Assembly: GCF_000003815.2 (NCBI RefSeq)
Contig: NC_049980.1
Span: forward strand, 17,401,154 to 17,465,153
Length of the DNA: 64,000 nt
Source of the DNA: Branchiostoma floridae
Lineage: Eukaryota; Chordata; Leptocardii; Amphioxiformes; Branchiostomatidae
Direction of reading: 5' to 3'
In this document: piece after piece, positions 18,901 through 21,900 of the stretch
Layout of the letters: each line of letters begins with the position of its first letter
How positions within the stretch are numbered: the first letter of the stretch is position 1
Made by a program: the position numbers and the translations under genes
The notes under the pieces: model-generated
What the model was told of the DNA's origin: nothing
The model's input: the letters and a program-made list of their open reading frames with translations, nothing else
Databases searched by the model: none

Positions 18901-21900
18901 ATACTCTGAAATGATAAAGATAAAGGGTTGGATTGATTGGATTGTGTAATTCATCGGAAGTTTTTGGCATTCCTTGCGTCGCACATATAATAGGTCGTTG
19001 ACCCCAAAATACTAGTACACAAATTGTTTGTGGCCACGTGTGAGGCGCTTCTAATAGGGGACAAAAGTAAACTGTATTATTTGTAATACTTGCTCTTCGG
19101 AATAGCGTTAGACAAATAAGATGTTGGCATTGATCAGAGTATGAGTCATTCTTGTTAAAGATTAATTGCTAACTAAGCATTTTTCTCGAGCCGACCGTGG
19201 CCATGTTGTTTATCGCGTTATTTGGGCTATATATAGCTGCTCTGCCGATCTCAAACTGGATGGGATTAGGCTGACTTTCAGTGTTTTGGCAACGAACACA
19301 TTTGTTAAATCCTTGTTAATTATTTGCGGGTTTCTTCATTTCCGATATGTGAGAAAATAGTATCGTGATCAATCAAAAGATTGCAGTCGGGGAAATCTTC
19401 CGACACTGGTGAAGTCGCCATTTTGATCTTGCAAGAATCCAATGTTCGGTGACAAGATGAATATTTGCTTTCGGGGAAAAAGATGACGGAGGCAGTTTTG
19501 TGTGAAGAACAAAACTATGTGAAAACATAGAACATAATTGACTACATTAATTCAAACCTGAACCTGGCAGAAAAAATTTAATCCATGTGTTTGTAAATGT
19601 ACATTTTAGTATTAGTTTATCCAAATTTGAATTCTTTTACAGTTTTTAGAGTTAGTTTCTTCTCGGACATGTCAGACAGCTCGGCGCGGTAGTGCTCACT
19701 GTGCTGTCAAAATTGATTGATTTTGTTGTTGGCGCCCGGCACATATTATACTAGATCAAAGGACCGCCTCCCAGTACAACTTGGACGTAGCGAACTTCTG
19801 ACGTTCTGTACTGGGGGCGTTCTAATAGTAGCAGCTGGGGACAATCTTACCAAGAAATGTCAAACTAACTTTTTTTTTCAAAAGATAAGAAATTTGGCCA
19901 GCTTCATTTGAACATGTAGCAACATCTAACAACATCTAACATCCGTGTACACGGTATTCAAAACATGAATACTCTGACCTCCTTGGTTGGATGTACAGCG
20001 TGTACACAATTACGCTCATCATAATTTATATACAGAATATACTACCAGCCGTTTTGACCAAAACCCTGTCCAAAATTTCGACACAGTTTTTGTACACATT
20101 AATTCTACGATGGGTGTATGTTTAATATTGAGATTACAATGCTTTCTGCTGCAAGGAGGTGCAGCTGCACTAGATACCTTACTCTGCCGTATGCGATACT
20201 CAAAATCCCCAAAACCAACCTCCGGACCGGACCGGGCAGCTGTTTCTGCCGACCGACCGGGCAGCGGATTCCGCTAACCCGATTTAATTACCCTCTAACA
20301 AAGTTTTGATGCACAGGTACAAAGGACTACTACTAAGTACTAGTACCAACTTACAAGCCAATGTTGTGTACTAAGCCTTACTCATTATCAAGGAGGTTAT
20401 GGGAACCTTATAGTCCTAAGCATTAATTGCATGCGTGTGTGTGTGCATGTGTGTGTGAGTGTGTGTGGTGTCGTTGCTTAGGCTAAGAGTTATGACGTAT
20501 GAGTAGAGTAGAGTTAAAATGGCTTGTATGCTTAACAGAAATTTAGGCATGCAGACCTTCATAAATAGTGCAAATGTAGAAATTCAGAGGGGCGAGTAAG
20601 AACAGAAAGAAACAACACCCCGACTCCCGGGATTCGAACCCGCGCCGAACCCGGGCAGCCGGATCACAAATCCAACGTGCTAACCACAACACCAAAAGCT
20701 CAAGAGCTGTTGGCGTGGTCAGTTTGGCAGCGCTAGAACCCCACTGTTACACTACTCCCCCTTTTCTTTTCAAGATTCGTCCTCGAATCTCCGAGATCGA
20801 CATCCCTGTGTGGCACATACTAGCCTGTTACTCACAGGGCCGGCGTGGGAACCATTGTAGAAATTCAGAGGGGCGAGTAAGAACAGAAAGAAACAACACC
20901 CCGACTCCCGGGATTCGAACCCGCGCCGAACCCGGGCAGCCGGATCACAAATCCAACGTGCTAACCACAACACCAAAAGCTCAAGAGCTGTTGGCGTGGT
21001 CAGTTTGGCAGCGCTAGAACCCCACTGTTACACAAAACATAGGATATTCTGTATCGCCCCCTGTCCCGGGCCTCCTGTGGGTCATGCTGCACCTCGGGCA
21101 GTACGGAATATTCCCCGTGTTGTATTTTATTTATGAGGGTCTTCATGCCTAAATTTTCCTTTAAAAATTACGAGCCATTTCAATTCACTGTTAATCATTG
21201 CCGGCCAGCTCTAATTCAAAGTTAAGCGGTATAACGTTACTATTCGTGAAACTTCTTCTTCCAACTTCATAGAGCTGAAGACTCCGGACGTGGAGTCACT
21301 CACCTATAGAACACTCCGTACAGATCTTTGAGTTGCTTGAAGCGAGGTTTGGCATTGGGCTTCATACCCCTCCGTGGAAACACATGGTCCAGGGGGATTC
21401 TCCAGCCCTGGGGGACCATACATACATACATACATATTCATACTCATGGGGAACCATGCAAATGTGATAATTTGATCAGTGCTAGCCTATGGTCAACCAA
21501 GGAGGTTAAAAAACACTGTTTTTTTACTTCTGAATATATGCCTGTGGTTTAATACATCGATCTGTCATAGGAAGTGACAGCTGACAGAATACAAGTTATA
21601 ATATTAAGACAACCAATTAAAATTTAAATCACGAACGCTGATTTAATACCTTTGCTCTTCTAGTTCTACATGGATGAAAGATTCTCTGACTCTGTCAGGG
21701 CAAGGAGGCTATATATATATATATATATAGCCTAGGCTATATAACGTTAGCCTCCTTCTGGTCAGACTCAGAGTGAAGGTATATGCAGCTGCTAAATGAT
21801 ATCAAGCGGCCAAACCACAGCCTACCCCACAGTACCCACCTGGTCAGGAACGCCGGTTCCGTGCTGGAAAAGCTTCTCCAACTTGCGCACGTCTGGGCCT

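Follow-up and report, generated by a model that had tools for sequence, protein, structure and literature searches.

A TRIM with tRNA-like LTRs in the lancelet Branchiostoma floridae and related copies joined to tRNA-Glu

We analysed a window of 64,000 nucleotides (contig NC_049980.1) from the lancelet Branchiostoma floridae. It contains a complete TRIM of 458 bp on the minus strand (20575–21032), which consists of two LTRs and an internal part and is flanked by a 4-bp duplication. The window also contains exons of a GBA2-like glycosyl hydrolase and furin-like repeats, and the best solved relatives of a receptor exon in the window are orexin receptors. Read along the minus strand from 21032 to 20575, the order of the parts is as follows: the 5' LTR (20856–21032), a single A, the primer-binding site TGGTTCCCACGCCGG (20840–20854), the polypurine tract GAAAAGAAAAGGGGGAGTAG (20752–20771, 19 of 20 bases are purines) and, adjoining the tract, a 3' LTR of the same sequence (20575–20751). 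The internal region spans 104 nt (20752–20855). According to the direct-repeat search the LTRs are 177 bp each, 100% identical and have the ends TGTAAC...CTACA; the repeat finder gives 178 nt instead of 177, as the target duplication and the internal part happen to begin with the same base. The target-site duplication CAAA lies at 20571–20574 on the low-coordinate side and at 21033–21036 on the high-coordinate side. An earlier reading, made from the sequence only, had described two identical-looking 177-bp TG...CA repeats, a TGG-starting stretch resembling a primer site one base from one LTR, a 20-base polypurine tract against the other LTR and CAAA flanks, all of which we confirmed. Its suggestion of recent movement is supported as well: the LTRs are identical and the insertion is thus probably young.

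Two further characteristics of the locus were recorded. A plus-strand stop-to-stop frame of 145 aa (20580–21017) covers most of the TRIM. Inverted arms of 29 nt, 93% complementary, bracket the TRIM at 20539–20567 and 21128–21156. Given these arms, the target of the insertion may have been a fold-back or MITE-like element.

Copies were searched for in the host genome (513,431,437 bases in 431 contigs). The whole-element search gave 1265 first-look candidates, among which 40 were scored; all 40 were inspected (the window copy and 39 others). Clustering of the flanks placed 18 of these 40 best matches together in one shared context and left 22 as independent insertions. Exact 4-bp duplications flank 20 of the 22 independent insertions, 17 found by script and three (L022, L043 and L045) by eye with corrected LTR ends. 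The two exceptions are L019, which matches in three of four bases, and L042, which lacks the 3' LTR end. The identity of the LTR pairs ranges from 100% to about 81% (the truncated L042 excepted). As copies elsewhere have the same ends and duplications, chance is excluded as the origin of the structure in the window. A second sample was taken from the first listed of 203 matches to a junction word and comprises 17 single places and three arrays. One of the 17 loci lies in the repeat shared by the cluster of 18 (the carrier, see below), and 11 of the 16 others have exact duplications by script (the exceptions are L090, L091, L096, L099 and L100). The number of junction-word matches overstates the number of copies, because an unrelated 152-bp satellite contains the 16-base junction word. 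We therefore rejected the 152-bp arrays as arrays of the TRIM. The three arrays that carry the LTR/primer-site word (L084, L085 and L086) are not TRIM, and in L084 and L086 the 152-bp unit is rich in TGTAGAAATTCTACA palindromes. Exact-pattern scans of viral contigs gave 0 and 0 matches and a phage blastn search gave no match. A search for the GFP family (E 0.001) found 0 matches in the host genome and none in 14 control genomes, an outcome that does not demonstrate absence.

The sequence-only reading had proposed a search for solo LTRs and for full copies with duplications. Both are present, with duplications of 4 bp. The window-type LTR has 103 exact starts in the genome (reversed control: 0). 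Among 100 listed starts we counted by eye 16 pairs spaced 275–281 bases apart and 68 unpaired starts. We inspected 20 of these 68, chosen from loci outside the earlier samples: 15 proved to be solo LTRs that begin and end exactly as the LTR does, none of them with a tail, and 4-bp duplications flank 12 of these. One of the 12 (L159) is the carrier site. The other five starts run into the primer site (L157), follow a purine tract (L171), lie in the carrier (L170) or break off into other sequence (L156 and L168).

The cluster of 18 has common flanks, LTRs which are 79–84% alike and, in most cases, the duplication TTCC. These copies, 92–94% identical, could be taken for a subfamily; we rejected this, as the shared flanks of 18 of the 40 copies indicate a single insertion that was copied as part of a larger repeat. 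We compared six longer stretches. The match between L048 and L053 extends for about 3.75 kb (L048:2465-6216), L049 and L050 match the same span in pieces, and L051 and L052 match part of it. The ends of this carrier are 17-bp inverted repeats (CGCCCATTCCTCATTAA / TTAACGAGGAATGGGCG), and by eye we found 4-base duplications around it: ATAC in L048, TGCA in L049, GTAA in L050 and TACA in L053. For the second type of LTR, 27 of the 30 loci that were cut out fall in the carrier. The site of the TTCC insertion also occurs in its empty form, with 15 exact matches (reversed control: 0). Eight of these were inspected and all eight have carrier sequence on both sides, with a left match of 27 to 150 nt. 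The filled site and the inspected empty sites thus have the same carrier flanks, from which we conclude that a DNA-transposon-like repeat multiplied one TRIM insertion.

Each LTR contains a tRNA-like region in sense orientation. In the window LTR a perfect B box GGTTCGAATCC starts at LTR position 112 (minus strand, 20911–20921 in the 5' LTR and 20630–20640 in the 3' LTR) and an A-box-like stretch TGGTGTTGTGG at position 58 (20965–20975 and 20684–20694, respectively). The two starts are 54 nt apart and 43 nt separate the boxes. The perfect B box and the tRNA-like region on the same strand of each LTR had been noticed from the sequence before and were found again; the spacing given at that time was 46 bases. 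The A box of the window departs from the usual consensus, with a T in place of the expected A: TGGTGTTGTGG fits YGG, not TRGCY, whereas TGGCCGAACGG of the B-type LTR conforms to the consensus. As a gene the window LTR bears only a weak resemblance to a tRNA. ARAGORN with default settings found no tRNA gene in it, whereas relaxed settings produced a tRNA call for LTR type A and also for type B. At the Rfam gathering thresholds the window showed neither a tRNA nor a 5S match, and a permissive scan of 20560–21050 (E up to 10) returned only sub-threshold matches to tmRNA (E 0.0009) and mascRNA (E 2.3). LTR types A and B share the positions of a T4 (55), the A box (58) and the B box (112), and the boxes are fixed in position although the surroundings of the A box differ between the two types. 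LTR types C, D and E, where seen, retain GGTTCGA.

On the sense strand of the window element the T4 is found at this site only, once per LTR (20975–20978 in the 5' LTR and 20694–20697 in the 3' LTR, minus strand); a transcribed stretch free of T4 would, however, not be unusual in random sequence (P about 0.20). It follows a palindrome of ten bases, GCTCTTGAGC (20979–20988 and 20698–20707). These ten bases vary by subfamily (GCTCTTGAGC, GGCTTAAGCC, GCACTAGTGC and GCTCTAGAGC), yet they are palindromic throughout. In five rows picked by hand, with the odd-length variant D (L091) excluded, 20 of 20 cells pair and three of the four pairs changed on both sides. The covariation score was 1.000 compared to 0.334 in shuffles, and none of 500 shuffles reached it. 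Two of the five measures were no better than the shuffles: the both-side changes (155 of 500) and the further pair types (264 of 500). Folded as RNA, the palindrome gives short stems only (-2.3 and -3.3 kcal/mol), and it may hence have a different role such as dimerisation. Pol III usually starts 12–20 nt before the A box, so that the start would fall within the palindrome. Judging by this position just upstream of the A box, we infer that the palindrome and the TTTT form the site of Pol III termination and of a short R, with the TTTT of the 3' LTR as the putative terminator of the full transcript. Palindrome and T4 thereby offer a testable anatomy for the start and stop of Pol III in a TRIM with a tRNA promoter, where a short R is expected.

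Alternatively Pol II could transcribe the TRIM, and the tRNA-like stretch would then be a passenger left by an old SINE insertion. The imperfect A box of the window and the poor tRNA fold would agree with this. However, a passenger would have to account for boxes whose place in the LTR is the same in type A as in type B despite the differing surroundings of the A box, for the GGTTCGA kept in the C, D and E types that were seen, and for a palindrome and T4 which covary beside the A box. We regard transcription by Pol II as unlikely and Pol III as the putative polymerase of the element.

The primer site TGGTTCCCACGCCGG agrees in 14 of 15 bases (by eye) with the complement of the tRNA-Glu 3' end including CCA, and the odd base permits a G:U pair. 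A match of the primer site to a host tRNA 3' end, as the sequence-only reading had suggested looking for, is thus given by tRNA-Glu. The related copies point directly to this primer as well, since they carry mature tRNA-Glu sequence after the LTR end. We searched for the pattern CANTGGTTCCCACACCGGGAA, which is CA-N-TGG followed by the tRNA-Glu complement, and inspected all 41 places where it occurs (reversed control: 0). Local alignment detected at least 50 nt of antisense tRNA-Glu(CTC; anticodon by eye) in 33 of the 41 and the full 75 nt in eight. Window-type U5 lies upstream in 27 places, and in 23 places, crossed by eye, it is found together with at least 50 nt of tRNA. Several of the remaining places end, judged by eye, in sequence that resembles older related LTRs. 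The chimeras include CCA, whereas no encoded CCA was observed in any of 16 distinct tRNA-Glu 3' ends followed by T4 (by eye, 21 rows). Among the eight copies with the full 75 nt, L107 and L126 are without window-type U5; by eye, L107 is flanked by short direct repeats ACGTTTCAA and could be another kind of insertion. L104 and L134 are a near-identical pair with only 20 nt of tRNA. In L106, L111, L127, L130 and L138 older LTR-like ends, some of them tRNA-like upstream, are joined to tRNA-Glu copies (by eye); these are probably further related families.

The end points of the tRNA copies differ (75, 72, 71, 69, 68, 67, 66, 65, 55 and shorter), and so does the sequence that follows. The tRNA is continued by the LTR start (L108 and L118), U3 (L109 and L131), the palindrome (L100), the B box (L125), the U5 end (L120, L123 and L132) or the internal part (L099 and L129), and elsewhere by DNA that could not be placed. 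Duplications were found in seven of 12 assessable tRNA-bearing copies. Six of them were detected by script after a tail ending in CA (0.26 expected), and the seventh is L091, where the duplication GATA lies one base past the tRNA. The tail of L114 is 63 nt long. For L120 the script picked a distant match, and by eye we found CATT after the nearer tail TCGGGTTGTTTCA. No duplication was detected in L119, L121, L137, L099 and L100; a separate match inside the tRNA of L137 was taken as chance. Opposite A58 lies nucleotide 19 of the copy, directly beyond the reach of the search pattern; 32 of the 33 long copies have the expected base there, and 31 of the 33 have it at the next position. The unchanged base opposite A58 would be consistent with a tRNA-Glu primer that lacks m1A58.

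According to an HIV-1 review (PMC13191261), plus-strand synthesis normally stops at m1A58, and with an unmodified tRNA it reads through to the tRNA 5' end. The over-extended plus-strand strong-stop DNA of HIV-1 (P1) is alike in that an unmodified primer tRNA is copied to its 5' end; the review does not count this read-through product among the active templates, whereas similar products of the lancelet appear integrated, often after jumps. We lean towards the reading that the reverse transcriptase repeatedly runs past primer position 58, sometimes to the first tRNA nucleotide, and that jumps rescue the DNA before integration follows. If this is true, the more than 20 LTR-tRNA chimeras are a natural genomic record of a reverse transcriptase over-reading its primer. 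Integrated chimeras of this kind may be new: among the literature matches listed, from a search with most subscription journals outside it, no title concerned integrated whole-tRNA copies.

A stable sub-family with a whole antisense tRNA as its primer site could also give LTR-tRNA junctions, and the same tRNA-Glu sequence is indeed common to many copies. The differing end points, the differing joined sequences and the several LTR types make such a sub-family quite improbable compared to repeated read-through. A tandem dimer of a tRNA-derived SINE mimicking an LTR element would explain why each repeat has a tRNA-like head containing an A and a B box, but it has next to no chance and was rejected on the duplications (20 of 22 independent insertions) and the solo LTRs (15 of 20 unpaired starts, 12 of them with duplications and 0 of 15 tailed), with the exact TG...CA ends, the primer site, the purine tract and the tRNA-Glu with CCA copied at the junction of LTR and primer site also speaking against it. 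Lone, tailed tRNA-SINEs are what the sequence-only reading had named as evidence against a TRIM, and the lancelet element differs from a tRNA SINE, which is tailed, has a variable 3' end and shows no LTR structure.

That reading had described a TRIM-type LTR element of an animal in which each LTR carries tRNA-like A and B boxes on the sense strand, which our results bear out. It had also regarded an animal TRIM with a tRNA promoter as a new parallel invention, and this part has to be given up: TRIMs with tRNA-like LTRs were already described in 2024, from animals, fungi and one plant, and named Helenus (Kojima 2024, PMC10886601). Helenus elements occur in six animal phyla, have 4-bp duplications in animals and are 311–1263 bp long as whole elements; their Pol III function is, according to the same study, without experimental validation (PMC10886601). 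The lancelet TRIM, with 177-bp LTRs, TG...CA ends and 458 bp, falls within this range. It is also alike in its TRIM size, the tRNA-like LTR with A and B boxes, the purine tract, the solo LTRs and the tandem copies. The primer site is complementary to a tRNA 3' end in both, and tRNA-Glu is listed for bivalves (PMC10886601). Both have GGTTC in the B box (GGTTCGAATCC in both LTRs of the lancelet element) and 4-bp duplications, which we observed in 20 of 22 and 11 of 16 insertions and in 12 of 15 solo LTRs. A difference concerns the copied tRNA: the Helenus primer-site section (PMC10886601) describes none, whereas relatives of the lancelet element carry such copies. The host table of Helenus includes vertebrates and lacks cephalochordates, and the words amphioxus, Branchiostoma, hairpin and TTTT are all absent from the main text (PMC10886601). 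Because cephalochordates are absent from the table, the lancelet TRIM is a new member of the Helenus type, an assignment made by the described features, and it extends Helenus-type elements to a cephalochordate. No title reporting a lancelet TRIM was present among the literature matches listed, in a search that left out most subscription journals.

Other known TRIMs are less similar. Cassandra of plants also has a Pol III promoter in its LTR, but this promoter is derived from 5S rRNA and is not tRNA-like; the permissive Rfam scan of 20560–21050 (E up to 10) revealed no 5S sequence in the lancelet element. The Cassandra transcript extends from the 5' LTR into the 3' LTR, where it ends, and leaves 18-bp repeats (Kojima 2024, PMC10886601). 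The short R proposed for the lancelet TRIM would correspond to this arrangement. Among animal TRIMs, Ajax of nemerteans likewise has a promoter sequence of the Pol III type; unlike the lancelet TRIM it is 5S-derived and has 5-bp duplications (PMC10886601). The biv-TRIM of bivalves, again from animals, resembles the lancelet TRIM by description in that it has solo repeats and occurs in tandem; its abstract mentions no tRNA-like LTR (PMC6934838).

The 458-bp element is very probably a non-autonomous LTR retrotransposon that moved recently and belongs to the Helenus type, i.e. a TRIM with tRNA-like LTRs, and we propose the following cycle for it. Pol III would start in the 5' LTR, 12–20 nt upstream of the A box and at the palindrome, pass the tRNA-like part, U5 and the internal part and stop at the TTTT of the 3' LTR. 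The palindrome and T4 would then be present at both ends of such a transcript as a short R, about 18 nt in length. A reverse transcriptase and an integrase from another LTR element would then copy the RNA from tRNA-Glu and insert the product. In the case of the tRNA-bearing copies plus-strand synthesis would have overrun tRNA position 58 into the primer, and before integration the over-long end would have jumped to a different sequence, in many cases that of a TRIM molecule or an LTR end, with short matches at some of the jumps.

The sequence-only reading had also suggested looking for a coding helper element, and none was found. The only longer candidate was L155, which we rejected as a helper: 10 frame pieces from its 30 frames of at least 70 aa gave no Pfam match. 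L155:174-5282 is a 5.1-kb LTR-like element with 186-bp repeats which are 99% alike and a tRNA-Glu primer site.

Some copies show an unusual arrangement of their LTRs. L067, L071, L097 and L100 are tandem LTR-internal-LTR arrangements, and the tandem of L097 is flanked on the outside by an exact 4-bp duplication. In L035, L045 and the carrier copies the left and right LTRs are clearly unlike while the 4-bp flanks match, which may be due to gene conversion or cDNA recombination.
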